From: Halobacteriales archaeon YIM A00013
GTDB taxonomy: Archaea; Halobacteriota; Halobacteria; Halobacteriales; Haloarculaceae
DNA: 64,000 nt
Assembly (NCBI GenBank): GCA_025041195.1
Contig: JAKCFM010000001.1
Span: 1,736,001-1,800,000, forward strand
Direction of reading: 5' to 3'
Shown: positions 6,949-51,127 of the stretch, one piece after another
Layout of the letters: the number at the start of each line of letters is the position of its first letter
How positions within the stretch are numbered: the first letter of the stretch is position 1
The notes under the pieces: model-generated
Told to the model about the DNA's origin: nothing
The model's input: the letters and a program-made list of their open reading frames with translations, nothing else
Database searches by the model: none
Made by a program: the position numbers and the translations under genes

Positions 6949-7155
6949 AGGGGGTTTCTGCCGATGTTCAATTGTATGCGTCGAGCGCGCTGCGTTCGAT
7001 CAGGTGGTGATTCACGAAGCGGTAGGAGTGTGATCAATTCACACAATCCACCAGTAGGAATGTATAATTTTCCAAAAGTAACAATGCAGAAGTTTGAATT
7101 GCCGTAGAGTAAACACCAGCATCATGTAGGTTGGGGCTGTTGCCATCATTCGCAG

Positions 7156-7455
7156 ATGGCAGACGAGAACGACGTAGTACGACAAGAAACCGCCTACAAG
7201 GATGGGATGGTCCGGTCAATCACAATGCGACCGACCGATTCAGATACCTACCCTTGTGGTTGGAAATATCGTCTGCACTTTGGCGACACTGATGGCAACA
7301 CCGTTCTACGATATGATAACTCGCACGAGCTCGAAAAAGGCCATGAATGCCACACTCCGGATGGCGTTGAAATCATCGACTTCCCCGGAATGATGACCCT
7401 TTACAACCGATTCCTCCGGGAGGTTGATCAGTGGTGGGAGCGAAATGAAGAGTGA
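7156..7455 (+). CDS. TumE-like (DUF6516) putative toxin
   Basis: 99-residue soluble protein resembling the DUF6516/TumE toxin family of haloarchaea. The core pattern GWKYRLHFGDTDGNTVLRY, then DNSHELEKGHE, then a C-terminal amphipathic FLREVDQWWE is characteristic. The gene following on the same strand is the winged-helix partner this family usually has, so the pair looks like a type II toxin-antitoxin module. The molecular activity of the toxin is not evident. It opens the accessory block that runs to 11.2 kb. Confidence 0.75.
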   Translation: MADENDVVRQETAYKDGMVRSITMRPTDSDTYPCGWKYRLHFGDTDGNTVLRYDNSHELEKGHECHTPDGVEIIDFPGMMTLYNRFLREVDQWWERNEE

Positions 7456-7531
7456 CAGACTAACGTCGATTCAATCATCTGCACGTGCATCGAACACAAA
7501 TCAACGCGGTGCAACAACAGCGGTAGCAACC

Positions 7532-7933
7532 ATGACAGACACACTGATCGTTCGAATCGGAGAGGATGATCGAACACGACAGGAGACCCGTGAATGGATC
7601 GCAGCAGCAGAACGAGGAGAAGATATCGAACCAAATCGAGTCCTCAATATCGAGCGTGAGGAAGATGTTGCACGCATTCTCAGTGCGGTAAATCTCGAAC
7701 TGCTCCGAACGATCGCAAGAAAGGAACCGGCAAGCATCCGCGAGACGGCTGAACTCGTCGACCGCGACGTTACGGACGTTCACGGTAATCTAACGAAGCT
7801 CGAAACACTCGGTCTGATCGAGTTCGAACAGGATGGCCGAGCGAAGCGCCCAGTTGTCCCCTACGACGATATTCAGCTTGATATTGATCTCTCCGGCGAT
7901 AATGACGGAAATCACAGGCATGCAGTTGCGTGA
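7532..7933 (+). CDS. HVO_A0114-type winged-helix DNA-binding protein (putative antitoxin)
   Basis: 133 residues. A C-terminal winged HTH (NLELLRTIARKEPASIRE, TELVDRDVTDVHGNLTKLE, LGLIEFEQDG) follows an N-terminal segment MTDTLIVRIGEDDRTRQET typical of the HVO_A0114 family. Likely represses its own operon and neutralises the TumE-like protein upstream. The start at 7532 gives the conserved N-terminus. ATG 7445, overlapping the toxin stop, would give a longer protein and cannot be excluded. Confidence 0.78.
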   Translation: MTDTLIVRIGEDDRTRQETREWIAAAERGEDIEPNRVLNIEREEDVARILSAVNLELLRTIARKEPASIRETAELVDRDVTDVHGNLTKLETLGLIEFEQDGRAKRPVVPYDDIQLDIDLSGDNDGNHRHAVA

Positions 7934-8071
7934 TTACTGGTTCCACACGCTACCAGTACTTCTCAAATTAATCACTCTCCCTCCTGACCCGCTCCATCCG
8001 ATGCTGATCCGGATGCTACGGAGAGGAAATTATTACTACAGATCTGCTGGGGAATCACGATAGGGTTTGAT

Positions 8072-8458
8072 TTATTCATTCCCCGCCAGTGGTATACGAC
8101 TCGCAAGCCTATCCTCAATGTCTTGCTCAGTGATCGTTCCAGGATGATATTTCGCAGGGAGTATCCTATTGGGTATTATAAATAGTAATGATATGGATAA
8201 GAAGGCGCATAAAGCTATCAATCCATCCTCAAAGAGGATGCGTATTATAATAAAGTGGAATAGGATACCAACAAAGACCGTCGCCCCTAGTGTAAATGGT
8301 CCAAGACCACCGGATCGGCGTTCAAACCCATCACTTGATTGTAAAGTAAGAAAAGGAGCCACATCTAGCAATACAGGATGTAAAATGAAAATATAAAATA
8401 ATATCGAAGCCACAACAACGATTCCTAATTGTATATATGTGCTTGGTTTTTCTTCCAT
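8072..8458 (-). CDS. Small membrane protein, paralogue B (candidate immunity protein)
   Basis: 128 residues with three to four helices: res 10-27, 55-75 and a long hydrophobic stretch 78-100. It is a clear paralogue of the product of 8687-9076: shared are P-x-LLDVAP, QSxDGFxRRxGGLG and the C-terminal QDIEDxLASRIPLAGxE. It starts two bases after the stop codon of the orphan tip gene, so it is the last gene of a compact minus-strand operon. The coding DNA is strikingly A+T-rich (19 G/C in the 60 bases 8161-8220). I know no characterised homologue. An immunity role is inferred from the gene order only. Confidence 0.8.
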   Translation of the reverse strand: MEEKPSTYIQLGIVVVASILFYIFILHPVLLDVAPFLTLQSSDGFERRSGGLGPFTLGATVFVGILFHFIIIRILFEDGLIALCAFLSISLLFIIPNRILPAKYHPGTITEQDIEDRLASRIPLAGNE

Positions 8459-8459
8459 T

Positions 8460-8690
8460 TTAGTTCACCCACGAATTGGTTTGCGGTTTTGTGAATTTAT
8501 TCAATGATTTGTTACTACTGGTTTCGTTATCTAATGGCGATATCTGAATTGTTCGACAGAAACCCTCAGATTTCCATTTTTCATCTACGTTATCTTGACT
8601 TTGCCAATTGCAATAGTTGATCGCAACAACATATGCATTACCACCTGTGACGGTCAGACCACCCCAAATGTGATCAATTCTGTCGCTCAC
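8460..8690 (-). CDS. Orphan copy of the C-terminal tip of the 690-residue exported protein
   Basis: 76 residues with no signal peptide. The core TGGNAYVVAINYCNWQ, then VDEKWKSE, C-R-TIQISPLD matches the end of the upstream large protein (TGGEAYTIANNYCNWQ, VDKSWKAE, C-Q-TIQMSPLD), including both Cys. The first 12 residues and the Asn/Ser/Lys-rich last 20 are unlike it. The GTG start overlaps the stop of the preceding gene by four bases and the next gene starts two bases after its stop, so it is probably translated. A displaced tip module without the secretion and carrier domains is what polymorphic toxin loci call an orphan cassette. Confidence 0.72.
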   Translation of the reverse strand: MSDRIDHIWGGLTVTGGNAYVVAINYCNWQSQDNVDEKWKSEGFCRTIQISPLDNETSSNKSLNKFTKPQTNSWVN

Positions 8691-9076
8691 TCACTCCCCG
8701 CCAGGGGGATACGACTCGCAAGCCAGTCCTCAATGTCTTGCTGGCCAATAGTACCAGGATAATATTTTTCTGGAAGCATTTTGTTTGGTATGATAATCAA
8801 TAATATTAATAACATGAACGCAGTGAAAGATAGTAAGCCATCTTCTATGATTGAAATAATCGCGATATAATAGATATAAACACCAATCACGAGTGTGGCG
8901 AGATACGATAAGAGTCCTAGACCTCCCGTTCGCCGATCAAATCCGTCGCCCGACTGGAAGGCGAGAATTGGGGCAACGTCCAATAGTATTGGATTTACTA
9001 TATATATGAATATGACAGTCATCACTACGAAGATCGCTATCCGTTCGACGTATTCCTTGAATGTTGTAGTAGTCAT
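8687..9076 (-). CDS. Small membrane protein, paralogue A (candidate immunity protein)
   Basis: 129 residues with hydrophobic helices at res 12-33, 57-76 and 82-98, a conserved central polar loop QSGDGFDRRTGGLG and a soluble C-terminal tail ending in ASRIPLAGSE. It begins 20 bases after the stop of the large exported protein and overlaps the next gene by four bases. Its product and the product of 8072-8458 are paralogues over their whole length. A membrane-embedded partner encoded directly after an exported protein with a variable tip suggests immunity or tip binding. No biochemical family is recognised. Confidence 0.8.
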   Translation of the reverse strand: MTTTTFKEYVERIAIFVVMTVIFIYIVNPILLDVAPILAFQSGDGFDRRTGGLGLLSYLATLVIGVYIYYIAIISIIEDGLLSFTAFMLLILLIIIPNKMLPEKYYPGTIGQQDIEDWLASRIPLAGSE

Positions 9077-9096
9077 TTTGAATCAGTAATTATCAT

Positions 9097-11169
9097 TTAA
9101 CTATGTGCGATTTTTGAATTACTTTCATCTAGAGGAGACATTTGAATAGTTTGACAAAGGCTTTCAGCCTTCCAACTCTTATCAACGCTTGACTGGCGCT
9201 GCCAATTGCAGTAATTATTCGCGATAGTATAAGCCTCGCCACCAGTGACACCTACATCTACCACAAATTTCCTGCTATTTTTAGCCCTAAACATTCTCTT
9301 AATATATTTTGGTTTAATATCCATATCCACTGCCCACTTCACATTTTCAAGATCATTGCCTTTTTTGGCATAGTATTTGATGTCATCAACTGGCACGTCA
9401 TCCGTAGCGAGCTCGCCCGCAAGACCCAGATCAGCGTTCTTCCGATTGAGCAACAGCACATCGTCCGACGTTGCTCCCTCTTTCGCAAGTGGCATTGCCG
9501 TTTCGGGATCGATCCCTTTCTGTGTGAGTGTCAGGACTGCATCGCCACTGAAGCCCTCCTTTACGAGTGGCTTTGCCTCCTTGAGATCGATGCCAGCATC
9601 GATGAGCGCCTGTTGTTGCTTCCCTGAGACTCCATGTTTGACCATGCTATTCACGAACTGTTCCTCATATCCTCTGTTCACGATGTCTGTGTACTGGTCG
9701 TTTGTGATCTTGGCGGTGTTAGGTGGACGCTTCGAAAGGATCTCTGCATTTTTCTTTAGGGTCCCTTTCATCGAGTATTCGATGATCTCACTCATCGACT
9801 CACCACGATTTAACAATACAGTCGCACCGCCATCGCTGACCAAATCCAGCCCAACCCGTATTTGCACCCTTGAGGCGCTGTTCGCGAGGAAAGTGGCCAT
9901 CGTCTTGACCACAACTGGTGAGCGTCCAAAATTCTTAATCCAACTGGCGGTAACCGAGGCGACTTTTGGCGCATCCCCAAGTCCAAACGCACCGAGACTA
10001 CCTGCAATTCCGATTGCATCGAGTGTCGCCTCCCCAAACTCACCCACATCCAACTCTGTTATAGCACTGTAACTGTTCTGAATAAAATCGCGGGTATCAG
10101 CGACTACGCCAACGTACGGCGTTGACGCAAGTCCCAGCATTCCAAGGAGATAAAACGGCGACTCAGACTGGGTGACTTCCGCCAAACCCTTTGGCATCCC
10201 CATCTCACCCAACACACTTCCCAGGGCGAAGGATCTGGCCTGCTCAGGATTCTCGTGCGCCCAGACGCCGATCCCCACTCCCGGAATTCCTCCCAGGATC
10301 ATAGCTTTGAGCGCGGGATGTTTTTCCAGGAAATCGATTACCGCACCAATGTCATTGTTGAATTTTTGAATGTATTCGTTTGCCTTTTCTAAAGGTGATT
10401 TGACCACCTCCGAAACTTCATTGGTGACCTGCTGAACGTCATCCTCCTCGTTACCGTCGAGATCGATCGCTCCATCGTCGGTGAAGAGCCGATCTTTGGC
10501 ATCGTCATCGAGACACGTCAGTCCGCAGTCTCTTTTTTGTTCGTCGCCCGAATCCCCGCCAGACGATCCCTGTGCGGATTGATCGGAATCCTGTACCGGA
10601 GGTACTGATTCGGACGAGTCCGATCCATCGGAATCAGGTGCCCGTGCACCCGAAACATCAGAATCAGCGTTGACCGTGAGATCGGTCTGAAGCTTCTCTA
10701 CGTTCGTATTGGTCGTATCGATTGAAAATCCTACACCAACGGACTGTCCTGGATCGAGCTTGACAGCGTTTCGTTTCTTCTCAAGCGGGGTGGATCCATT
10801 GTAAAATCTGATGTTCGGTTCGGTATCCTGTAGCCAGACAGAGACTGGACTGGTCCCCTGATTGGTAATCGTGAAAACGTTGTCCAGCTGCATTTGACCG
10901 TTTGCGTTCACACCCGCTCCCAGCTGAGAGCCGCCGTCACCGACGCTATCGAGCGAAAGCTCCAGTTCTCCGGCTTTCGTATAAGAAACATACTCGCCGT
11001 TGTCCCCACTCGCAGGGTGCAGCCCGAGATAGCCCCCCGCATCGTCGGCCACCTGTACGTTGGCGTTCCGTTGGGCAGTGAACGAGTCGAACGCCCCAGT
11101 GACGTAGATTGCACTCGTCACCAACCCAACGGCAATCAGAACGATCGCAAGACGACGGACCCTCCTCAT
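9097..11169 (-). CDS. Exported multidomain protein with DUF1102-like N-terminus and variable C-terminal tip (candidate polymorphic toxin)
   Basis: 690 residues. Res 1-28: basic start plus one hydrophobic helix (signal or anchor). Res 30-165: DUF1102-like beta domain (VQVADDAGGYLGL, LDNVFTITNQGTSPVSVWL). Res 170-215: Ser/Asp/Gly linker. Res 215-220: CGLTC. Res 285-420: hydrophobic Gly-rich region (TPYVGVVADTRDFIQ, GEATLDAIGIAGSLGAFGLG) resembling the pre-toxin region of bacterial polymorphic toxins. Res 505-625: helical repeats of about 26 residues (LIDAGIDLKEAKPLVKEG, LTQKGIDPETAMPLAKEG). Res 636-690: short tip with two Cys. The DNA encoding the tip is poorer in G+C (23/60 at 9121-9180) than the body (33/60 at 9541-9600). 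It is the first gene of a four-gene operon. The toxin role is inferred. Confidence 0.7.
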   Translation of the reverse strand: MRRVRRLAIVLIAVGLVTSAIYVTGAFDSFTAQRNANVQVADDAGGYLGLHPASGDNGEYVSYTKAGELELSLDSVGDGGSQLGAGVNANGQMQLDNVFTITNQGTSPVSVWLQDTEPNIRFYNGSTPLEKKRNAVKLDPGQSVGVGFSIDTTNTNVEKLQTDLTVNADSDVSGARAPDSDGSDSSESVPPVQDSDQSAQGSSGGDSGDEQKRDCGLTCLDDDAKDRLFTDDGAIDLDGNEEDDVQQVTNEVSEVVKSPLEKANEYIQKFNNDIGAVIDFLEKHPALKAMILGGIPGVGIGVWAHENPEQARSFALGSVLGEMGMPKGLAEVTQSESPFYLLGMLGLASTPYVGVVADTRDFIQNSYSAITELDVGEFGEATLDAIGIAGSLGAFGLGDAPKVASVTASWIKNFGRSPVVVKTMATFLANSASRVQIRVGLDLVSDGGATVLLNRGESMSEIIEYSMKGTLKKNAEILSKRPPNTAKITNDQYTDIVNRGYEEQFVNSMVKHGVSGKQQQALIDAGIDLKEAKPLVKEGFSGDAVLTLTQKGIDPETAMPLAKEGATSDDVLLLNRKNADLGLAGELATDDVPVDDIKYYAKKGNDLENVKWAVDMDIKPKYIKRMFRAKNSRKFVVDVGVTGGEAYTIANNYCNWQRQSSVDKSWKAESLCQTIQMSPLDESNSKIAHS

Positions 11170-11190
11170 GGAATCTTTATCTACGAATTT

Positions 11191-11200
11191 GACTATAAAT
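11191..11200 (-). promoter_or_regulatory. TATA box of the candidate toxin operon
   Basis: On the minus strand ATTTATAGTC is centred about 27 bases before the ATG at 11169, the spacing expected for a leaderless haloarchaeal transcript. It is the only promoter-like element seen before the four-gene block 11169-8072, whose internal gaps are 20 bases or less. Confidence 0.55.
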
Positions 11201-14180: not shown

Positions 14181-15689
14181 TTACAGATCTGGTACTGCAA
14201 CGTGGAACTGTCGCTGTCGAGCTTCTACCATACTGAGGTGGAACCCACGCTTTCTCGACAGCCTGATGTAACTCGCACGATTCGAGCCACCGAACAGCCC
14301 GCCGCTTCCGCCGGTTGCGTCTTCGGCGACGGCAAGCGCGTTCGGTTCGAAGTAGCTGGTCGAGACCAGAAACGCACTCGTTACTGGCCACTGGCTGGCT
14401 GCCACACTGGCATCGTCGAGTAGATTTTCGAGATGCGCATCGGTGGTCGGATCGGTGGAGTCGTGGATATTGACAACGAGTAGCGGATCGCCTCGCTTAT
14501 CGAAACACACGACATCGAAGTAGATTGACGTGCCATCCACCGTGTTTCTGGCATGCAGCGCCGCCCGGTCAATATCCGGGAGATAATCGTACAGATCCGC
14601 AAGTTCGTTTTCATAGCCCGCGTTGTAGATCACATAGAGGAGATCACGGACGAGCCAGGAGACCACGTCAAATTCGATCGAATTCGAGAGAAACTCCTCA
14701 TACGGCGTTCCGTCAACAACGGTCGACTCGGGGTCGAAGCTCGTGTGGTGTTCGAGCATGAGGTTGTCGTTTACCTCTTCGGGCGTTGCCTCGCCGTGGT
14801 AGGCGTCGGTGAGCGTCGCTCGATTCTGGGTGTGATAGCGAACGAACAGTGACGTCCCCGCAAGCGCCTTCTCTGGCGTTAGCTCTGTCAGGTTTTTGCT
14901 GTGCTGTGAAGAGACCGACCCGCCACTGGATTCGAGATCGTGAATTCGGTCCTGAAGGCGACTAATTTTGGAGTTGAGATACTCGCGCTCTTCAAGGAGA
15001 TTGTCTCGTTCGGCTTTCAGCGTGTCGCGTTCGTGCTCAAGCGCGGTGATCTGCCGACGAAGCTCCTGGATCGACTCGTTCGACCCATCAGTCGCAAGCG
15101 GTTCCGTCTCACCAGGCAGCGCGCTCGGCGACCGGACGCTAGAGCCACGCGAATCAGCAACCGGTGAGGGCTCAACCGGAACGATTGAGACGGTGTACTC
15201 GCCGGTGATTGTCTGTCCCACGGTATCTGCCTGTTCGTTCGTAAGCAGGCGATTTTCGCCGCTGACGAACGCGATCGACGTGGAGCCGGTCTGATCGTAC
15301 ACGGTGTAATATTCATCACCACCGCCTCTGAGCTCAAGATAGCCGATGAACTCCTGGTTACCGTTCCAGTTGTCGAACGCGTTTACTTGATTATCGATCG
15401 GGACTCGTGCTGTGTGGTGTGTCGAGCTCCGAACGGGCTCCTGTTCGAGCATCGAGAAAAGGACTGGCAGAATAGGATCAGGACTGATATAGATGGTACC
15501 CCGGTCGGTGATATCGTCTACGGCCCCATCGAACACCCCCACACTGTCGCCATCACGCATGAGAATCCACGTTCCAGCGTGCACCGCACCGCTGAAACCA
15601 GCGCTTGACAGATCTGAGAGTCCGACATCAGATCGGAGAAACTGCCGTGATGGCCATTGTTCAATTCGTTCGACCGTGCGCCTCTGCAT
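14181..15689 (-). CDS. Conserved haloarchaeal coiled-coil protein
   Basis: 502 residues. An N-terminal domain (res 1-170) begins with VERIEQWPSRQFLRSDVG and contains WILMRDGDSVGVFDG and YTVYDQTGS. A Ser/Pro/Thr linker leads to a long coiled coil (res 205-252, NESIQELRRQITALEHERD). The C-terminal alpha/beta domain (res 270-500) contains SIYFDVVCFDKRGDPLLVV, a pattern reminiscent of restriction-endonuclease-like folds without a clear PD-ExK triad. It is haloarchaea-specific as far as I recognise. It ends two bases from the stop of the convergent regulator. Confidence 0.65.
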   Translation of the reverse strand: MQRRTVERIEQWPSRQFLRSDVGLSDLSSAGFSGAVHAGTWILMRDGDSVGVFDGAVDDITDRGTIYISPDPILPVLFSMLEQEPVRSSTHHTARVPIDNQVNAFDNWNGNQEFIGYLELRGGGDEYYTVYDQTGSTSIAFVSGENRLLTNEQADTVGQTITGEYTVSIVPVEPSPVADSRGSSVRSPSALPGETEPLATDGSNESIQELRRQITALEHERDTLKAERDNLLEEREYLNSKISRLQDRIHDLESSGGSVSSQHSKNLTELTPEKALAGTSLFVRYHTQNRATLTDAYHGEATPEEVNDNLMLEHHTSFDPESTVVDGTPYEEFLSNSIEFDVVSWLVRDLLYVIYNAGYENELADLYDYLPDIDRAALHARNTVDGTSIYFDVVCFDKRGDPLLVVNIHDSTDPTTDAHLENLLDDASVAASQWPVTSAFLVSTSYFEPNALAVAEDATGGSGGLFGGSNRASYIRLSRKRGFHLSMVEARQRQFHVAVPDL

Positions 15690-15741
15690 ACGATTGGATT
15701 ATCGGCCAGGAACAAATACTTTGTAAAAGCGCTCGCACCCG

Positions 15742-16182
15742 TTACGAGCGGGTTTCGATGTAAGCAGACGGTCGACAGCGGTAGGTCAACTCCCGGTCAA
15801 TCGGCTCCGGGAGGCCACCCCAGAGTGCCTGGGTCGCGAGCTCTTCTTCACCCACGGCGACGACCCACTCAGTGATCGGCGTCCGTCGTCCCTCAATCAA
15901 CAGCGGATACTCCTCAATACGAATCACGCGGTCAACAGGAAACTGCCGAAAGCCGTTGCCCACGTCGATTTGTACCGGCCCCGTGGTGAACGCTGGTCGG
16001 AGATCCTGTGGGGTATCGACGAGAATGTGATAACAGTAGAGCTGGTGCATCGATCCGTCGGCAAACACCGACGCCGTATCCCGACCAAGCTCGATAATTC
16101 GATGCGTCTCGGCGGCCAGCTGGAGGCGTTTTCTCTGTGTGGTGGGTTCGTCGGCTGGCGTCGATGGCATGGGTGAACTCAT
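15742..16182 (-). CDS. Conserved hypothetical protein (haloarchaeal)
   Basis: 146 residues, soluble and acidic. The body reads as an all-beta domain (YCYHILVDTPQDLRPAF, GPVQIDVGNGFRQFPVDRVIRIEEYPLLI, ITEWVVAVGEEELA). No motif is recognised. Met5 (start at 16170) is an alternative. It lies about 100 bases downstream of the cytochrome bc operon on the same strand. Confidence 0.6.
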   Translation of the reverse strand: MSSPMPSTPADEPTTQRKRLQLAAETHRIIELGRDTASVFADGSMHQLYCYHILVDTPQDLRPAFTTGPVQIDVGNGFRQFPVDRVIRIEEYPLLIEGRRTPITEWVVAVGEEELATQALWGGLPEPIDRELTYRCRPSAYIETRS

Positions 16183-16281
16183 TCAAACGTCACCGGCAAC
16201 ACACGACTCGTGTGTACTTTACGGATCCACTATTAGTCTATCGGATACGCCAGTAACGTGTCTGTAACGGGAACAGTCGGG

Positions 16282-17052
16282 TTATTTCGGCGGCCTGAGT
16301 CGGTAGTACCGACGGTTCAGTTCGAACATATATCCTTCACGCATCGTTTTGAGCACCGCATACGTGAGACAGCCCCCAACGATCGGCATCAGAAACGTCA
16401 GATCGAACAGGAGATGCGGTGGCATCAGGGGCGGGAAGAGATTTTTGACCGAGAGTGCAGCGATAGTGATCGAGAAGATCACGCCACTCATCCCAATGGC
16501 AGCCCAGAACGGCTCTTCGACTGGCCGTCGCGCCGATCCCTTGTTCAAGAACGGGACGACCGCAATCGCGCCGACGATGACGAGATTAGCAAGCACCCCG
16601 TACGTTCGGTCAGCCATCAGCTTTTGCCCACCAAGGATGGAGAGCTCAGGGTTGAGCGGGCCGAGCTTTAGCAGTCCGAACGACCAGTACAGATACCAGT
16701 CAGGCAGAATCACGGCCGGCGTGGTTGAGGAGTCGGCTGGGGCCTCGATGTGTGGCGGCATCGTTGCTGACAGGAAGATGATCATCCCGATGAAAAACGA
16801 GGCGATTGCTAGATTACGAATTGTTTCGTGTGGCCAGGCCGGAAACCCAAGCACATCTCGCTCGATGTAGCTGGATTCGGTTCGAAGATCCTGGTCTTCA
16901 CGACGAGCGCGTTCGAAGTACTCGTACGTGAGCCGTGAGAGCCCCTGCGTTCGAGCCTTCCGATCGCTCCACGTGGGCGTTTGATCGTCCGGCGCAACGA
17001 TCCCCGAACCGTCTGTCCGGGGCTGTTCGCCGGTGGTGTCGCTCTCGGTCAT
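16282..17052 (-). CDS. Cytochrome bc complex subunit IV-type (C-terminal half of cytochrome b)
   Basis: 256-residue membrane subunit equivalent to PetD or the C-terminal part of cytochrome b. Res 1-70 are soluble. Four hydrophobic helices follow (res 75-95, 150-168, 185-205, 215-235). The Qo-site motif PEWY appears as LPDWYLYWSFG, directly followed by KLGPLNPEL. It provides part of the quinol oxidation site and pairs with the b-haem subunit encoded just upstream (86-base gap). Last gene of the bc operon. Confidence 0.85.
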   Translation of the reverse strand: MTESDTTGEQPRTDGSGIVAPDDQTPTWSDRKARTQGLSRLTYEYFERARREDQDLRTESSYIERDVLGFPAWPHETIRNLAIASFFIGMIIFLSATMPPHIEAPADSSTTPAVILPDWYLYWSFGLLKLGPLNPELSILGGQKLMADRTYGVLANLVIVGAIAVVPFLNKGSARRPVEEPFWAAIGMSGVIFSITIAALSVKNLFPPLMPPHLLFDLTFLMPIVGGCLTYAVLKTMREGYMFELNRRYYRLRPPK

Positions 17053-43647: not shown

Positions 43648-44949
43648 TTAGTCGAGATCACCTATCAGTCGCATGCCCGCTGCCAGGTTCTCGTTCTCAA
43701 GTGCGTCGATGATCTCCGATCGCGGCCGAGGTGTCAGCGTCGTCGAATCACTGGCAAGCTCGACGACCAGCTCGGTGGTGATGATCGCACTCTCACGGAG
43801 CGTTCGAGATTCGAGTTTGTCAATCGTATCCGCGTGGGTGTGCGCCCATCCGCGTCCCCGGCCATCGGTTTCTGACATGAGGTGGAGTCCTGGCACGCCG
43901 CCGGCGAGCACGAACGGCCAGTGGTCGCTGTGGGGGCCCATTTGCGGCGTCGTCGAAATCGGGTGATCGAATCGCTCTGCCACCGTCTCGACGGCGTGTT
44001 CTATTCCAGCAAAATCGTGCGTATGCGCTCGGATTGTTCGCCCACGGCCAATCCCATCATTGTTGACAATTGCATCGATTTGGTCCAGGTCCATCCGCTC
44101 GGCAGCGTACTCAGACCCACACAGTCCGACCTCCTCGGCGCCGAAGGGGGCGATATGCACCCGGCGATCCAGGTCTGCCTCCCGTCGGGCAAGCGCAGCC
44201 GCAACCTCAACTACCAGTGCGGTTCCCATGCCGTTGTCCAGCGCCCCCTCAGAGATGTCATGGGCGTCGAGATGGCTGGTCAGGAGGATTTCGGTATCCG
44301 TATCGGGGCCAAGCTCGGCGTGCACGTTCTGGCTCGTCGTTTGTTCGATCTCGGCAGAGACCTCGACGGTGACTGTTTCGCCAGTTGCGCGCCGGCGGAG
44401 CCGCGCACCCACCTCTTTGCCGACGCCAACCGCGGGGATTTCGCCGATCGGTTCCTCTGCAGTCCCCACGCTTCCAGTCGGTGGGAGACAGCCTTCGACG
44501 TGGTTCGCGAAGATGAATCCGGCTGCACCGGCTCGAACCGCCCGGTAGTATTTTTCTCGCCGGTGGATGAACCGGTCGTACCATTCGGGAACCGTACTTG
44601 AGACGAGGACGATCGAACCCGAAAGGTCGGTATCGAAATCCTCCGGCAGTCCGTGGCCGAGATCGACGAGTTCGCCGGTAACGCTTTTCGATGGCGACCG
44701 TGGAAGCCCGATCGATTCGTGCGTCCGATCAGCTGTCTCGACTGAACTCGATCCGCGCTTCCATCCCTGAATCGGAAACTCCTCGAGATGGGCGTTCCGT
44801 GCGCCAACCGCGTCGAGATGATCGCGCGTTAGCTCTGCGGCCCGACGCTCGCCAGCAGTTCCAGCCAGTCGATTCGGAATGTCGACTAGCCGTTCGAGAT
44901 GGTCCCATCCGACATCGCTCGTGAACGTCGCACCGATCCAGTCGGTCAT
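43648..44949 (-). CDS. M28 family zinc aminopeptidase-like protein
   Basis: 433 residues. The di-zinc site is visible: LTSHLDAHDISEGALDNGMG (His, Asp), FGAEEVGLCGSEY (catalytic Glu), IVNNDGIGRG (Asp) and SDHWPFVLAGGVPGLHL (His). A PA-domain-like insert lies between res 110 and 190 (PEWYDRFIHRREKYYRAVRA, AAGFIFANHVEG). No signal peptide, so it probably acts on cytosolic peptides. Last core gene before the 45-50 kb island. Confidence 0.9.
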   Translation of the reverse strand: MTDWIGATFTSDVGWDHLERLVDIPNRLAGTAGERRAAELTRDHLDAVGARNAHLEEFPIQGWKRGSSSVETADRTHESIGLPRSPSKSVTGELVDLGHGLPEDFDTDLSGSIVLVSSTVPEWYDRFIHRREKYYRAVRAGAAGFIFANHVEGCLPPTGSVGTAEEPIGEIPAVGVGKEVGARLRRRATGETVTVEVSAEIEQTTSQNVHAELGPDTDTEILLTSHLDAHDISEGALDNGMGTALVVEVAAALARREADLDRRVHIAPFGAEEVGLCGSEYAAERMDLDQIDAIVNNDGIGRGRTIRAHTHDFAGIEHAVETVAERFDHPISTTPQMGPHSDHWPFVLAGGVPGLHLMSETDGRGRGWAHTHADTIDKLESRTLRESAIITTELVVELASDSTTLTPRPRSEIIDALENENLAAGMRLIGDLD

Positions 44950-45111
44950 ACGCGTCGATCATCAGGCCGGCGAAATAGCAATTGTGAATGCTCGATCGGA
45001 TTGGGTCTCGTCACCGTCGGCCACTCCTTCGCACTCGTGCGCGATACACTCCCAGTCCGAATAATTTCAGGAACGTGAATATATAATATCGTGTGCAAGC
45101 GACGTTGGGTC

Positions 45112-45798
45112 ATGGATGAGCGATCGTCGGAGTCCGCTCCAGCACGCGACGCCCATGCGGATGCGACAGACGCCAGCGCAGAAGAGAGTGACGGCCACCA
45201 GATGAGTGACGAGGCGTCCCTTGAGATCGCAATCCAGGAGGCCAACGATACATTTCAATCGATTTCCAATCTCGACAGCATCTGTGACACCTCGATCGTC
45301 GGGATTACGTTCTTGTTGACCGCGATCGTTGGCTGGGCCGCGTTTGCACTCCCTCGGCTTCCCGCTCGCTCGCTTTCCTGGCTGGGTGTTGCCGGAACGG
45401 CGGTTCTTGGTGCGCTCGCAATTTTCATCAGCAGTGTGTACATCGTGAAATCCCTGATTCCGCGCGCGTTCTACACTGACAGCGTCGGTGCCGTGCTCAT
45501 CGACAAGCCGTTGGTTCCCGGATCCACCGATCCAACGACGGCGATCGAGGCGACAGAGCAAGCAACCGGCGAACACTCATCGAAAGCGGCGTTCGATCAC
45601 TGGCTCTCCCAGTATGGTAACGACGAACGGATCACCAGTGCGGCGACGTTTCAGTACGCCAGGCTGTTCCATTACAAAACCGTCGCACAGCTGAAAGCGA
45701 CGGCGACGACGCACGCAATCGTCTGGTTCAGGGTGGCGGTGGGGTGGGTCGTCGTCTCGATTTTGGTTGGGACGGTAGGGCTGCTAGAGGCAGGATAG
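45112..45798 (+). CDS. Membrane protein resembling the Pycsar effector PycTM (DUF5706-like)
   Basis: 228 residues. An acidic low-complexity start, an amphipathic helix (LEIAIQEANDTFQSISNLDS), then helix 1 beginning DTSIVGITFLLTAIVGWAAF, helix 2 (LGVAGTAVLGALAIFISSVY) followed by KSLIPRAFYTDSVG, a soluble helical stretch of about 70 residues with QYARLFHYKTVAQLKATAT, and a final helix. The DTxxG start of helix 1, PR after helix 2 and the KYxxLxxA-like helix recall PycTM proteins that respond to cyclic nucleotides. The resemblance is by pattern only. A nucleotide-cyclase gene lies 2.9 kb downstream on the other strand. Confidence 0.55.
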   Translation: MDERSSESAPARDAHADATDASAEESDGHQMSDEASLEIAIQEANDTFQSISNLDSICDTSIVGITFLLTAIVGWAAFALPRLPARSLSWLGVAGTAVLGALAIFISSVYIVKSLIPRAFYTDSVGAVLIDKPLVPGSTDPTTAIEATEQATGEHSSKAAFDHWLSQYGNDERITSAATFQYARLFHYKTVAQLKATATTHAIVWFRVAVGWVVVSILVGTVGLLEAG

Positions 45799-45813
45799 AG
45801 CAGATCCAGTAGA

Positions 45814-46359
45814 TTAGTCAGATATTTGTTGTGCATAATAGACTGTATCGACTCCTGGCCCCCGATCATCAGGTATCCGGGTAACAAGGGAGAATCCCAA
45901 CTCCTTCAGGAGGGTAATGTGTGCGTCGTTTTCTGCCCAGGTTCGTGTGGTTACGTACGGAAGTGCAAATTCGCTTGGCAAGTCTTCCAGCAACGATTGA
46001 TACATCGACCGAGCTATTCCCTGTCGACGGTAGTCCGGATGAACGATCATCGAGGCAGCGTAGTTTGATGGAGAATACTCCTTGATTTGGTCTGTAGCGT
46101 ATCCATGTCGAAATGAGAGATACCCTACGACGGTGTCAGAGTCATATGCGAGCACAAACTGCTGTGAGCAAAGCTTCTCGACATACGCAGATAGGGATGA
46201 TTCAGAACCGGCTTCGTCTTCGAGGTCCTCGGTTTTGGACGACCTACCCCAGCTTCCAAGTGGCGGAACGAATTCCGTTGCGCAGAGTTCGACGAGTTGT
46301 TCGATGGTATGGCGTTCATCTGACCCAATTCCTCCGAAGAGGAGTTTGATCTGGGTCAT
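45814..46359 (-). CDS. GNAT family N-acetyltransferase
   Basis: 181 residues. GNAT core: FVLAYDSDTVVGYLSF (strand), acetyl-CoA loop AASMIVHPDYRRQGIARSMY (RxxGxA), then TRTWAENDAHITLLKELGFS with the motif-B Asn. Substrate unknown. Sequence composition is poorer in G+C than the core. Convergent with the PycTM-like gene. Confidence 0.86.
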   Translation of the reverse strand: MTQIKLLFGGIGSDERHTIEQLVELCATEFVPPLGSWGRSSKTEDLEDEAGSESSLSAYVEKLCSQQFVLAYDSDTVVGYLSFRHGYATDQIKEYSPSNYAASMIVHPDYRRQGIARSMYQSLLEDLPSEFALPYVTTRTWAENDAHITLLKELGFSLVTRIPDDRGPGVDTVYYAQQISD

Positions 46360-46725
46360 TCTGAACTGACCAACTCTGCTCCAATGGTGAGGTAACCAGA
46401 ATAGCCGCCAGTATTATTTCCGACACTCCGAGCGCATCGATATCCTAACACACGACAATTCATGTCGCCGCATAACTGTTTATTCTACAAAAGAATGTCT
46501 TTTTGAAAATGAAGTTGGGTTAATGCTTATTTGGATAGTCTACAGTAGGTGCTTCCCTGAGAGAGCTCATTTATAGTCGACATTCGGCGTAACCGATGAG
46601 AAAGACCGTGGTTAGACGCCCTTTACCTCGCGGCTTCTGGAGTTTATTGAATAGGACACGCTCGAACGCAAGGTCGGTTGAGAGCCGAGCCTGCTACCAC
46701 ACTGAACACATCGATAGGGGTGTGA

Positions 46726-46751
46726 GGGGGAGGGGGAGTCGGAGTGTAAAT
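46726..46751 (-). repeat. ORB-like repeat 1 (inverted relative to the others)
   Basis: Read on the minus strand: TTTACACTCCGACTCCCCCT then CCCCC. Shares TACACTC-x-GA and the C-run with the copies at 47055 and 48538. Opposite orientation to the copies nearer orc1, as in origins where ORBs flank the unwinding element. Confidence 0.65.
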
Positions 46752-47054
46752 CGAGAGATTGAGGTGGTGGTAAGGAATCCGTACCTATCCGGTGGTATAT
46801 AAAATATCTAATTCAACAATCAGAAAAACAGAGGTATCTGAGTTATTTCGTAGATAGATGTATGCTTAGTTCGAATTCGAACCACCCCTTACTTACTAAC
46901 GTAACGTAAATAGAAAGCTTTATAATAATATTGATAAGGAAACGAGTCATCCAATAGAAGAGCTTGTATGGTCCTTCCTTTAGATACCTACAGTAGACCT
47001 GTTATCGGCTGTTACAATTACCACTGCCCCCACTGACGTGGAGATAATGTGAGG

Positions 47055-47081
47055 GAATACACTCCGATCCCCCCTCCCCCC
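47055..47081 (+). repeat. ORB-like repeat 2
   Basis: GAATACACTCCGATCCCCCC followed by TCCCCCC. Near-identical core to repeat 1 read on the opposite strand. Confidence 0.65.
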
Positions 47082-47135
47082 GAGTAGATGAACTCCCATT
47101 GGCCCGACCATCTCCCTAGCCAGTAATATGTATAC

Positions 47136-47160
47136 ATTTACACTCTATTTACCCCTCCCG
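47136..47160 (+). repeat. ORB-like repeat 3 (weaker)
   Basis: ATTTACACTCTATTTACCCC followed by TCCCG. Keeps TTTACACTC and the C-rich end but diverges in the middle. Confidence 0.5.
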
Positions 47161-47164
47161 TTAC

Positions 47165-47191
47165 TCTCTTCACTCTTTTCACTCTCTTCAC
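47165..47191 (+). repeat. Tandem 9-base repeat, three units
   Basis: TCTCTTCAC, TCTTTTCAC, TCTCTTCAC in direct tandem, one mismatch in the middle unit. It lies immediately upstream of the orc1 TATA box, so it may be an iteron-like initiator site or a promoter operator. Confidence 0.6.
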
Positions 47192-47200
47192 TCCCATTGA

Positions 47201-47208
47201 TTTATAAT
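47201..47208 (+). promoter_or_regulatory. TATA box of the orc1/cdc6 gene
   Basis: TTTATAAT, 27 to 34 bases before the ATG at 47235. The spacing fits a leaderless transcript and makes the TTG at 47220 an unlikely start. Its closeness to the repeats suggests autoregulation by Orc1. Confidence 0.55.
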
Positions 47209-47234
47209 GCCACGGGTTATTGGGTCCCGTAATC

Positions 47235-48488
47235 ATGGAATCCTTCGGCGGAGAACAGAAGATATATAAAAATATTGATATTCTCGATCCTGAACCTGAC
47301 ACGTATAAGCCGACTGAACTCCCGGAACGCGAGGACGAGATTTCGAGAATTCATTCGGCATTGCGGCCAATTACGCTTGGTGGTTCCCCGCGGAACATTC
47401 TCGTGTATGGGCCAACGGGACAAGGAAAGACAGTTGGGGTGAACCTCAAAACTGAGCAACTTCAGGAGTGGGCAGAAGGCGAGGATGAGATCGATCTCAC
47501 AGTACTGCGTGTTAGCTGTAAGGGAGCAGGCAAATCATGGAATGTGCTCGCTGAGCTCGTTAAAGTAGCGAGAGAGGTTCGGTACAACAAAACCGTTGAG
47601 AAGCCGCGTGGTCCCACCAAGGTCGAACTCTTCGAGATGCTCACGGAGGACCTTGAGGTAATTGGAGGCACAATTATAATTGTTCTTGACGAGATCGACG
47701 GGATCCAAGTAGACAACTACGTCCTCTATGAACTCCCACGAGCATCGATAGAGGGCGTGTCTGTTGGAGTAATAGGAATAACAAATGATTATCAATTTCA
47801 TGAGAATCTCGACGCTGATATCAGATCCTCACTCGGGAGTCGGGAGGTAGTGTTCAGCCCATACGATGCGAACCAACTCCGAGATATACTTGCACGACGA
47901 GCTGCCCAAGCACTCCGGAATACGTATTTTGAGGATGGGATTAAGGATTCACAATATCTTCGCAGTGAGGTGCTTTCTGGAGATGTTATTCCACTTTGCG
48001 CCGCTCTCGCTGGGCAGGACACGGGCGATGCCAGACAAGCTATTCATCTATTATCGACAGCATGCGATCTAGCCCTGGATGACCGAAGTGAAACTGTTGA
48101 GGAGTCCCACGTACGGAACGCTCGTGAAGAGATACAGGAAGAAACGATCGGAAAAGGAATTAGCGGTGAGACTACGCAACGAAAGATAGCGCTGCTAACA
48201 GTTCTCGAAGCGAATTTGGCTGGAGAAACACCCGAAGGAACGACGCAGCTCTATCGTCGATACAAACGATTGACGAACCTAATCGGGACAGAAACGTATC
48301 AACAAGGTACGTTCAGGGAAAAGCTCAATGACTTGGTGCATGGAAATATCCTCGAAGGAGACCGTCATGGTCGTGGCCGAGGACGCGGTATGACGAATCT
48401 GTACGGGCTCGCAGTTGATCCCTCCCTCGTGATTGATAAAATCGGAGAGGACGCCCGACTCAGTGATATTACTGAAAAATATGAATAA
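47235..48488 (+). CDS. Orc1/Cdc6 family replication initiator
   Basis: 417 residues. Res 10-45 carry the family entry YKPTELPEREDEISRIHSAL. Walker A is YGPTGQGKT (res 58-66), Walker B IIIVLDEID (146-154), sensor 1 GITND, and sensor 2/Arg in GDARQAIHLL (264-273). A winged-helix DNA-binding domain follows (res 310-400) with a basic Gly-rich wing (DRHGRGRGRGMTNLY). It binds ORB repeats and loads MCM. The flanking repeats indicate a cognate origin. Composition is less G+C-rich than the core, as for accessory orc genes. Confidence 0.92.
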   Translation: MESFGGEQKIYKNIDILDPEPDTYKPTELPEREDEISRIHSALRPITLGGSPRNILVYGPTGQGKTVGVNLKTEQLQEWAEGEDEIDLTVLRVSCKGAGKSWNVLAELVKVAREVRYNKTVEKPRGPTKVELFEMLTEDLEVIGGTIIIVLDEIDGIQVDNYVLYELPRASIEGVSVGVIGITNDYQFHENLDADIRSSLGSREVVFSPYDANQLRDILARRAAQALRNTYFEDGIKDSQYLRSEVLSGDVIPLCAALAGQDTGDARQAIHLLSTACDLALDDRSETVEESHVRNAREEIQEETIGKGISGETTQRKIALLTVLEANLAGETPEGTTQLYRRYKRLTNLIGTETYQQGTFREKLNDLVHGNILEGDRHGRGRGRGMTNLYGLAVDPSLVIDKIGEDARLSDITEKYE

Positions 48489-48537
48489 GAACGTCACCGT
48501 CTAACTTGCATCCGCTCGCACCGACAATACATGTTCA

Positions 48538-48563
48538 ATGTTACACTCTGATTCCCCCTCCCC
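48538..48563 (+). repeat. ORB-like repeat 4, downstream of orc1
   Basis: ATGTTACACTCTGATTCCCC then CTCCCC region; core TTACACTCTGATTCCCCCTC at 48541-48560. Same orientation as repeats 2 and 3, on the other side of the gene. Confidence 0.6.
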
Positions 48564-48652
48564 GGCATTTCCAAAAGAATACATTTGGATCCCAATTTAA
48601 TCATTTAGATCACTACACCGTTCAATAGCTGATTTTTCCCACCCAATATTTC

Positions 48653-50203
48653 TTAGGGAATGAATGCGGTGAAATATATCCGCCTCACGGTTATATCATC
48701 TGGATCAAGTTCCTGGTTGGCAAGGAGTTTGAATTGATCTCGAAACACCTCACGCTGTGCGTTATTTTCCAACCGCTCCAGATATCGGATCAGGCTGGCC
48801 TCAGTGAAATCCTCGATAATAGTTTCGAGTGCACTTTCTTCTAGGATTTTAAATTGAGAGATTTCGAAGCCACACCTACTCAGTAGCGCTTTCATTTCGT
48901 CTTCGGTATGATATGTGAATCCCAACGGGATATCCAACGGATCGAAATAATGTTCCCAGTTGTAGCGGTTGATCAGCTCCAGAACCACTTCATGCAACTC
49001 CTGGTAGGTTCCATTGGCGCCTTGATGGACAGCGAGTACCCCATCCGTAGAGAGGAGCTTGTGAATAGTGGTGTATGCCTCAATTTGATTCTCGATTAGA
49101 TGGAGCGTGGAGTTGGAGAATATGAGATCATACGTATTGTAATCATCTTCTGGAGCGTATCTATCAATAGATGCTTTGACATACTCGATATGGGGATCGT
49201 CCCCCTGATGTTTCGCACGGGCCTTGTTTATGTTCTCCATCGAGTGATCAATCGCCGTTATATGTGCATTTGGGAGTAGACGGTTCTTCAAAACTTTTTC
49301 AGTTACATTTCCAGTCAAACATCCAACATCTAGCACGTTTTTTGGTTGGAATCCCAGCGCACCAATTTCTTCGGATACAATTTCTTGAAGTGTATATGAC
49401 TGCTGAACAACTGTATTGGAATGTTTCTCGAAGCGGTCCGGATCCCAGAAAAGGTCCCGTTTATTTCTGAGTTTTGCTAAGCACTTATTCGTGAACTCGT
49501 TCAGCAGCACTTGATCATTATACCGTTCATGCCGGGTGTACGCCTCTGTGAATTCTGAGAGTGCGCTTTCGTAGTTCTGGTTCAGGAACTTCGATAACCC
49601 ACGATTAAACGTCTCAGTGTAATATTTACTCAACCGATTATTATCGCATAGGTTGTAAACAATCTCATTTTTATTGATCCCCTGAAGACTCTGATTTGGG
49701 ATTTTACGCACGTTATACGAATCGGGAAGGGAATCTTGCTGTATCTCTCTGTATGTAATTTGGTCTATGAGGATAGAAAGGCCATACTTCTTGCATAATC
49801 CTTCAAGGCGGGCAGCAAGATTTACTGGCCGGCCCAGTACAGTGGACTCTATGTCAGCCAAATTCGTCCGGAACACTTCCCCCGTAGCAATCCCAATTCC
49901 AATATCTATCGAACCCAATTCTTCCGTTGCTTCAGTCTCTGGGACTGCTTCTTGGTGAATTGCAACTGCTGCAGTTACTGCGGATTCGCTCGGTTTCGCT
50001 CCGTCAAAGACCGCTAACAAACAATCCCCGAGAATTTTATCTATTTCTCCGTTATTGGCTTCGATACATTTCTGGGACTTCCGAAATAGCGTATCCAGAA
50101 TTCGGCTTACTCGCTCCCCATCGAAATTATCGATGAATACCGTAGAATTTCGAATATCAAAGAATAGGACTGAAACGTCTGCCCGGCTCCCTTCTCCCGT
50201 CAC
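48653..50203 (-). CDS. Class III nucleotide cyclase - TPR-like - SAM methyltransferase fusion protein
   Basis: 516 residues from a GTG start. Res 8-150: class III cyclase domain with metal Asp16 (VLFFDIRNST) and Asp60 (KILGDCLLAVF), Lys56 and Thr121 at the purine-specificity positions, Asn128 and Arg132 (VNLAARL) of the transition-state pair, so it looks catalytically complete. Res 195-245: one or two TPR-like helix pairs (YESALSEFTEAYTRH). Res 270-450: class I methyltransferase with motif I VLDVGCLTGN, acidic ITAIDHSMENINKAR, and YDLIFSNSTLHLI. Cytosolic. I know no characterised protein with this order. Lies in the low-G+C 45-50 kb island. Confidence 0.85.
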   Translation of the reverse strand: MTGEGSRADVSVLFFDIRNSTVFIDNFDGERVSRILDTLFRKSQKCIEANNGEIDKILGDCLLAVFDGAKPSESAVTAAVAIHQEAVPETEATEELGSIDIGIGIATGEVFRTNLADIESTVLGRPVNLAARLEGLCKKYGLSILIDQITYREIQQDSLPDSYNVRKIPNQSLQGINKNEIVYNLCDNNRLSKYYTETFNRGLSKFLNQNYESALSEFTEAYTRHERYNDQVLLNEFTNKCLAKLRNKRDLFWDPDRFEKHSNTVVQQSYTLQEIVSEEIGALGFQPKNVLDVGCLTGNVTEKVLKNRLLPNAHITAIDHSMENINKARAKHQGDDPHIEYVKASIDRYAPEDDYNTYDLIFSNSTLHLIENQIEAYTTIHKLLSTDGVLAVHQGANGTYQELHEVVLELINRYNWEHYFDPLDIPLGFTYHTEDEMKALLSRCGFEISQFKILEESALETIIEDFTEASLIRYLERLENNAQREVFRDQFKLLANQELDPDDITVRRIYFTAFIP

Positions 50204-50415
50204 AGATGTGTGTAGAATGTATTTTTTGGAAAGTATTAACCATTCCGATATTAATCATATTCGTATTTGGCGCACTTACAGGTGAATAACTAGCCACTCT
50301 ATCTTTCGAGTGTCCTAGTAACCTTGGTCGCTGCTGTGATATGCAGTATCACCATGAGCCAACCAGCACCAGCTACCGGGATGCGTACGATGATGGAATG
50401 GATACAACCGCTGCT

Positions 50416-50979
50416 CTACCCGTCGCCTTCTTCATCCACGATAACGACTTCACCGTCCTGCACGTCGACGTTGATGAGCGTCTTGACATCGCGGGTTTTC
50501 ATCTTGTTTTCGCCACCGACCTTTTTGATGACGGCAACCACGTCGGAAACGTCCGCACCGATCTCCTCAAGCGCGGACGTGATCGAATGGAGCGTGCCAC
50601 CGGTTGAGAGCACATCGTCCAGCAAGAGCACGCGATCATCCGGCTCAACGTCGTTGAGATACATCTCGTTCTCGGAGTAGCCCGTCACCTGCGCGAGCGA
50701 CACCTCTCCGTCCAGTCCGTACTGGCGCTTGCGAATGACCACCAGCGGAATGTCCGTCATCAACGAAACGGCCGTCGAAATGTGAATCCCCATTGCGGCC
50801 GGCGTCACAATCTTATCGACGCCATCAAGCTCTGCCTTTCTGATGATGCCGATCACGATCTCACGGAGCAGTTCCGGTTCTAACATCGGAACGCCATCGC
50901 TGATCGGATGGACAAAATATTCGTAATCCCCCTTCTGAATTATCGGCGCGTCTCGAAGCGACTGAGAGAGCCGTTCCAT
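50416..50979 (-). CDS. Hypoxanthine/guanine-type purine phosphoribosyltransferase
   Basis: 187 residues. Salvages purine bases with PRPP. The PRPP loop is [18 protein letters not shown], and the N-terminus [33 protein letters not shown] matches archaeal Hpt. The start at 50979 is this conserved Met; a longer frame to 51045 exists. First core gene after the island. Confidence 0.92.
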
Positions 50980-51127
50980 GTTGCGCGTACTCAGCGGAGA
51001 CGTAAAAGCACGGCTGTGTGTCCCGTCTTCGACAGATATTATCATACAGCCAACAACATGTGCCGTGTTCGACCTGTCTCGAAAGCTTTAGCAGGGCGTC
51101 CGCCGCAGGGGTTGTGTACAGGTGCCT

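Follow-up and report, generated by a model that had tools for sequence, protein, structure and literature searches.

Organization of the cyclase-methyltransferase locus

The window (the entire 64,000-nucleotide stretch analysed) carries on its reverse strand a single open reading frame of 516 codons with a GTG start and no internal stops. Its product joins a class III nucleotide cyclase domain, a helical linker, and a class I methyltransferase domain (Table 1). In Pfam, residues 8–175 match Guanylate_cyc (PF00211, E = 9.7e-12) and residues 288–399 match Methyltransf_31 (E = 8e-15), the best of the class I methyltransferase models, and both matches are above the gathering scores. The original prediction of a cyclase and a methyltransferase in one archaeal protein is thus borne out by the two Pfam domains and by the frame, which remains open across all 516 codons, with no stop or frameshift between the domains. 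Since 11 homologous fusion genes with open frames are present in 10 genomes, the fusion is not an assembly join, and a chimeric assembly is ruled out as its origin. The gene lies in a lower-G+C island (44.6%, against 57.2% for the window), as had been noted from the sequence.

The AlphaFold2 model of the fusion, which was built on 11 homologues, has a mean pLDDT of 80.8 and a low-confidence hinge at residues 247–262 after the linker; the modelled methyltransferase spans residues 263–514. The helices between the two domains had been described as TPR-like; in the model they amount to no more than a three-helix linker, and no TPR family matched the fusion.

The fusion gene belongs to an inserted cassette, which also encodes a membrane protein, a GNAT acetyltransferase, and an Orc1/Cdc6 protein, and is flanked by a peptidase-like gene (PEP) and a phosphoribosyltransferase gene (PRT). 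A second low-G+C stretch of the window at 7001–11200 (41–50% in 7001–10000) contains a 690-aa reading frame (9097–11169, reverse strand) that starts with a signal-like segment.

Table 1 Features of the cassette and of the fusion protein, with positions in the window
Feature	Position	Strand	Evidence
Inserted cassette, ~5.4 kb	44950..50415		Between PEP (43648-44949) and PRT (50416-51045)
Membrane protein, 235 aa, candidate receptor/effector	45091..45798	+	Same 10/391 genomes as fusion; AlphaFold2
GNAT acetyltransferase, 181 aa, EFVPPL motif	45814..46359	-	Acetyltransf_1, E 1.6e-11 (Pfam)
Three ORB-like repeats beside orc1	46726-46751 (inverted), 47058-47080, 47136-47160		Repeat search
Orc1/Cdc6 replication initiator, 422 aa	47220..48488	+	TIGR02928, 300.8 bits (cut-off 181.3)
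Fourth ORB-like repeat	48541-48563		Repeat search
Cyclase-linker-methyltransferase fusion, 516 aa	48653..50203	-	ORF, Pfam, homologue alignment, AlphaFold2
Class I SAM-dependent methyltransferase domain, residues 263-516, BioC/Tam/JHAMT-like	48656..49417	-	Pfam, NCBIfam, Foldseek
Three-helix TPR-like linker, residues 193-249	49457..49627	-	AlphaFold2 model
Class III nucleotide cyclase domain, residues 6-187	49643..50188	-	PF00211, OaPAC sequence match, Foldseek

Catalytic residues of the cyclase and methyltransferase domains

The residue set of a class III cyclase is complete in one chain and agrees with the earlier assignment: the two metal Asp residues (Asp16 and Asp60), the base-pair residues Lys56 and Thr121, and the transition-state residues Asn128 and Arg132 are all present in the window fusion and invariant across the 11 aligned homologues. 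By sequence, the nearest relative of the cyclase domain is the photoactivated adenylyl cyclase OaPAC (E = 4e-13), with which Lys56/Thr121 and Asn128/Arg132 align, and Foldseek searches with the cyclase part of the model returned the adenylyl cyclases CyaB (3r5g), OaPAC, and CyaC (1wc1). Since the Lys/Thr pair aligns with that of OaPAC, ATP is by analogy the predicted substrate of the fusion cyclase and cAMP its most likely product.

For the methyltransferase part of the model, Foldseek returned JHAMT, BioC, and 3ccf, and the nearest solved relatives are small-molecule O- and N-methyltransferases including JHAMT, BioC, and Tam. Motif I of this domain is DVGCGTG in most relatives, DVGCLTG in the window copy, and EVGCEEG in G094. 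As judged from these motifs, the window copy may bind SAM less well, and some members of the family (window and G094) may have reduced methyl transfer or none.

Distribution and mobility of the cassette

Full-length relatives of the fusion are present in 10 of 391 Halobacteria genomes (11 genes in six genera), and the hosts include Halobellus limi, Halobellus rarus, Halomicroarcula sp. SYNS111, and Natrarchaeobius chitinivorans. The gene of Halobellus limi is located on a plasmid and annotated only as "methyltransferase". A first scan of the genome contigs with the single fusion sequence gave no match, and no fusion was found outside Halobacteria in a 246-genome phylum sample, in which Halobacteria are included. 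A viral origin was considered and rejected: scans of viral contigs with the single sequence and with the alignment returned only distant methyltransferases, the fusion and the membrane protein being absent. Phage records contained distant cyclases only.

At a threshold of E = 1e-5, class III cyclases are encoded by 18 genes in 16 of the 391 genomes, consistent with the expectation that they are uncommon in archaea. Eleven of the genes are the fusion. The seven others are located at six loci, each of which combines a PycC-like cyclase with a PycTM-family protein.

These six loci (L057–L062, in G339, G087, G267, G236, G225, and G360) are canonical Pycsar loci with a PycC-like protein of ~250 aa and a PycTM of ~162 aa. 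In G339 and G267 these genes have two further neighbours, a second divergent cyclase (319–325 aa, in which Asp replaces Lys56) and an additional small membrane protein, and the PycC frame of G267 is apparently broken.

In three same-genus genomes (G361, G338, and G277), PEP adjoins PRT at a distance of about 65 to 280 bp, as measured between tblastn ends. Since the two genes are adjacent there, the segment between them in the window is an insertion. YIM 93972 (G183, Halocatena), which is assigned to the same genus as the window genome, carries at the same site a shorter cassette with the membrane protein and the fusion only. Between the window and YIM 93972, its closest relative here, the identity is 93% for PEP, 98.6% for PRT, and 88% for the membrane protein, and 35% for the fusion. 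The closest relative of the window fusion is in Halomicroarcula (48%), and those of the YIM 93972 copy are in G033 and Natrarchaeobius. The G+C content is 59% in the membrane protein gene and 44–50% in the block of GNAT, orc1, and fusion. These values are most simply read as a probable replacement of the cyclase block, with the membrane protein kept. Since one membrane protein is retained beside fusion alleles that are only 35% identical, the link between the two is more likely to be a diffusible signal shared by both alleles than a specifically fitted contact between proteins.

The Orc1/Cdc6 gene is absent from the other homologous loci in tblastn searches; it was rejected as a conserved partner and is regarded as a passenger between GNAT and the fusion. 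At 46726–48563, orc1 is flanked by four ORB-like repeats of 22–26 nt in both orientations, which make this region a candidate replication origin, missing from the related cassettes.

A co-inherited membrane protein and a phosphoesterase of relatives

The genome set of the membrane protein family (~200–235 aa) is exactly that of the fusion. The two genes are near each other in seven genomes and ~50 kb apart on the same replicon in three Halobellus genomes. The hypergeometric probability of this co-occurrence is 5e-20 when kinship is ignored and about 2e-9 at the genus level (six genera), and the shared distribution rules out that the fusion is a lone enzyme. AlphaFold2 predicts, with modest confidence (pLDDT 65), three long helices at residues 33–89, 95–121, and 184–234. 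Matches to PycTM are weak in the family (best PADLOC value 0.0096, in two of seven members; Pfam 0.57, in one member), and neither PADLOC nor Pfam gave a match for the window copy. Direct homology to PycTM is unsupported by hhalign, by PDB sequence search, and by Foldseek against the PDB and viral models. We read the general layout as that of PycTM, with a long helix containing a membrane stretch, a second membrane helix, a soluble part, and a long C-terminal helix. Homology of this candidate effector to PycTM is putative, the sequence matches lying at noise level. No cyclic-nucleotide-binding domain was recognised.

A metallophosphoesterase gene is present at eight of the ten fusion loci and is missing from both Halocatena cassettes and genomes (the window and G183); in G183, the search gave only a weak match of 81 residues. 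The motifs D-x-H, GD, GNHD, HH, and GHxH are complete in the seven aligned members. The protein belongs to the superfamily of the cyclic-nucleotide phosphodiesterases CpdA, SpdA, and GpdQ and scores under every equivalog cut-off (22–33 bits for the NCBIfam CpdA equivalog, cut-off 225). Full-scoring members of this subfamily were found with the fusion only, and weaker paralogues in other genomes were dismissed as partners, their neighbourhoods being unrelated. In G333 (L015:10356-11076), the metallophosphoesterase gene is split by a frame change; it is intact in the near relative G295.

Exchange of modules around the methyltransferase

A GNAT homologue lies close to the fusion in eight of the ten genomes, G183 and G094 being the exceptions. 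A Clostridiales protein of 716 aa detected by the genome scan has a KAP NTPase (E = 1e-36) where the fusion has its cyclase, followed by the same methyltransferase; the 3' end of its gene is overlapped by that of the GNAT homologue. A second KAP-methyltransferase of 738 aa, with an adjacent GNAT, is encoded in another Clostridia genome. The Clostridial KAP module is QatA/PifA-like. The KAP NTPase-methyltransferase and overlapping GNAT genes at L067:8645-11345 and L099:5909-8729 constitute a candidate two-gene system. On this sequence evidence, the methyltransferase-GNAT pair is a portable unit to which various input modules can be coupled.

In two relatives, in G033 and G094, the cyclase is preceded by an N-terminal TFIIB-repeat domain (PF00382, E = 5.5e-12 and 1.9e-7). 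In these proteins (L022:11283-13523 and L023:8512-10779), which combine the TFIIB repeat with cyclase and methyltransferase, the nucleotide cyclase has an input that resembles a transcription factor. Fusions with and without the TFIIB repeat occur within 7 kb in G033, and two ADP-ribosylglycohydrolase-like genes (L022:9436-10497 and 15432-16340) lie near this double locus. Among the scanned neighbours of the fusion, neither a MADS nor a Qat gene set could be recognised; a single HerA-like ATPase occurs near one homologue, and a consistent defence-island neighbourhood was not found.

Possible function of the cassette

We tentatively consider that the cassette may be a mobile, Pycsar-like cyclic-nucleotide alarm of haloarchaea, and give this reading not quite an even chance. 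It is put forward because the fusion and the membrane protein share their distribution, the other class III cyclases lie in PycTM loci, the best PADLOC model of the fusion is PycC (5.5e-19, a domain also common to ordinary class III cyclases), empty sites and an allele swap are found, the phosphoesterase forms a subfamily of its own, and the Clostridial module resembles QatA/PifA. From the distribution, mobility, and resemblance we infer an antiviral function. The trigger, most likely viral infection, would be received by the linker and methyltransferase part of the protein, a task that may fall to the TFIIB part in some members. The cyclase would then dimerise and produce a 3',5'-cyclic nucleotide (judging by its residue set, most likely cAMP), which would act on the co-inherited three-helix membrane protein to permeabilise or depolarise the membrane and stop growth. 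In most members, a phosphodiesterase-like enzyme would clear the signal; the window copy is without this enzyme. The methyltransferase and GNAT would form a portable pair with a common target, which other input modules could drive, as the KAP NTPase may do in Clostridia. It is somewhat doubtful that the cassette belongs to an archaeal immune system using cAMP instead of a cyclic pyrimidine, with a methyltransferase-acetyltransferase core on interchangeable inputs (cyclase, TFIIB-cyclase, or KAP NTPase), an effector in the membrane, and an enzyme dedicated to switching the signal off.

Kill switches do not usually have a phosphodiesterase of their own, and its presence counts against the alarm reading, being compatible with reversible signalling as well. 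The alarm reading is also weakened by the poor PycTM matches of the membrane protein, by the lack of a recognised cyclic-nucleotide-binding domain and of a consistent defence-island neighbourhood, and by the missing phosphoesterase in the window and YIM 93972. The phosphoesterase at eight of ten loci, the adenylyl-cyclase residue set, and the cAMP reported in haloarchaea (PMC1906763, PMC6741144) favour a reversible cAMP unit that would serve physiology (stress, envelope, or morphology) rather than defence, in which the cyclase would make and the phosphoesterase degrade the nucleotide and the membrane protein would be a regulated channel or transducer. This seems unlikely in view of the very patchy distribution, the empty sites in same-genus genomes, and the lack of the phosphoesterase in the two Halocatena cassettes and genomes; moreover, swapped alleles and exchanged modules are what conflict systems more typically show. 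The sharing of the methyltransferase-GNAT pair with Clostridia under a changed input module would also suit a system in which the pair is the output and modifies a host or viral molecule, with the cyclase, like KAP, as a nucleotide-driven switch and the membrane protein as a regulator or anchor. However, the fusion is always accompanied by the membrane protein, GNAT is missing in two of the ten genomes, and the window copy and G094 have a degenerate motif I, which leaves such an output role improbable.

The presence of both enzymes in one chain had led to the proposal that a methylated second messenger arises by action of the methyltransferase on the cyclase product. This proposal found no support and is very improbable. 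In Clostridia, the same methyltransferase occurs with GNAT on a KAP NTPase where no cyclase is present, which argues against its being reserved for the product of the cyclase; in addition, its small-molecule methyltransferase relatives act mainly on carboxylates and amines, and the central glycine is missing from motif I of the window copy.

Small cyclic nucleotides are known in haloarchaea (PMC1906763, PMC6741144), and a phosphodiesterase was not found in Halobacterium (PMC1906763). Few of their makers, receptors, and roles are known, and the cassette combines a compact predicted maker with a candidate receptor and a candidate degrader in hosts related to genetically tractable haloarchaea. 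The membrane protein, GNAT, the phosphoesterase of relatives, the empty site, and the Pycsar link make the locus a system, not one isolated unusual protein. The gene set is small and mobile, and no earlier description of it, or of any cyclase-methyltransferase fusion, was found in the open-access papers searched. If the alarm reading is true, Pycsar-like immunity would be extended to a purine signal, and the canonical haloarchaeal Pycsar loci offer a built-in comparison.

Comparison with known systems

The fusion cyclase has its fold and catalytic residues in common with OaPAC, CyaB, and CyaC; unlike these enzymes, it is without a light or other known sensor and carries a methyltransferase. 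The methyltransferase fold is likewise common to BioC, trans-aconitate methyltransferase (Tam), and JHAMT, but the fusion scores far under the NCBIfam equivalog cut-offs (62.8 against 184.95 bits for BioC and 62.1 against 297 bits for Tam) and has the family motifs HQGxxGxYxxLH and DTxxxDFxxA of its own. MADS is a multi-gene mad set around mad2, and the Mad2 model matches the methyltransferase half of the fusion. The likeness to the KAP proteins of Qat and PifA concerns the Clostridial partner module, not the fusion.

Pycsar consists of the class III cyclase PycC and a PycTM or PycTIR effector, produces a pyrimidine cyclic nucleotide, cCMP or cUMP, and restricts phage through abortive infection. 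The cassette likewise pairs its class III cyclase with a membrane protein that is small and has several helices, and its occurrence is patchy and mobile too. The fusion, however, has the adenylyl-type Lys/Thr and Asn/Arg residues, whereas haloarchaeal PycC proteins have Lys or Asp at position 56 and Lys/Glu in place of Arg132, and clade D PycC uses the bulky F60/K104/F109 for UTP (PMC11224242). Furthermore, the cyclase is fused to a methyltransferase, the membrane protein is not detectably PycTM, and GNAT and the phosphoesterase are extra. Our best reading is that the system works like Pycsar, and we do not file it as a Pycsar member.
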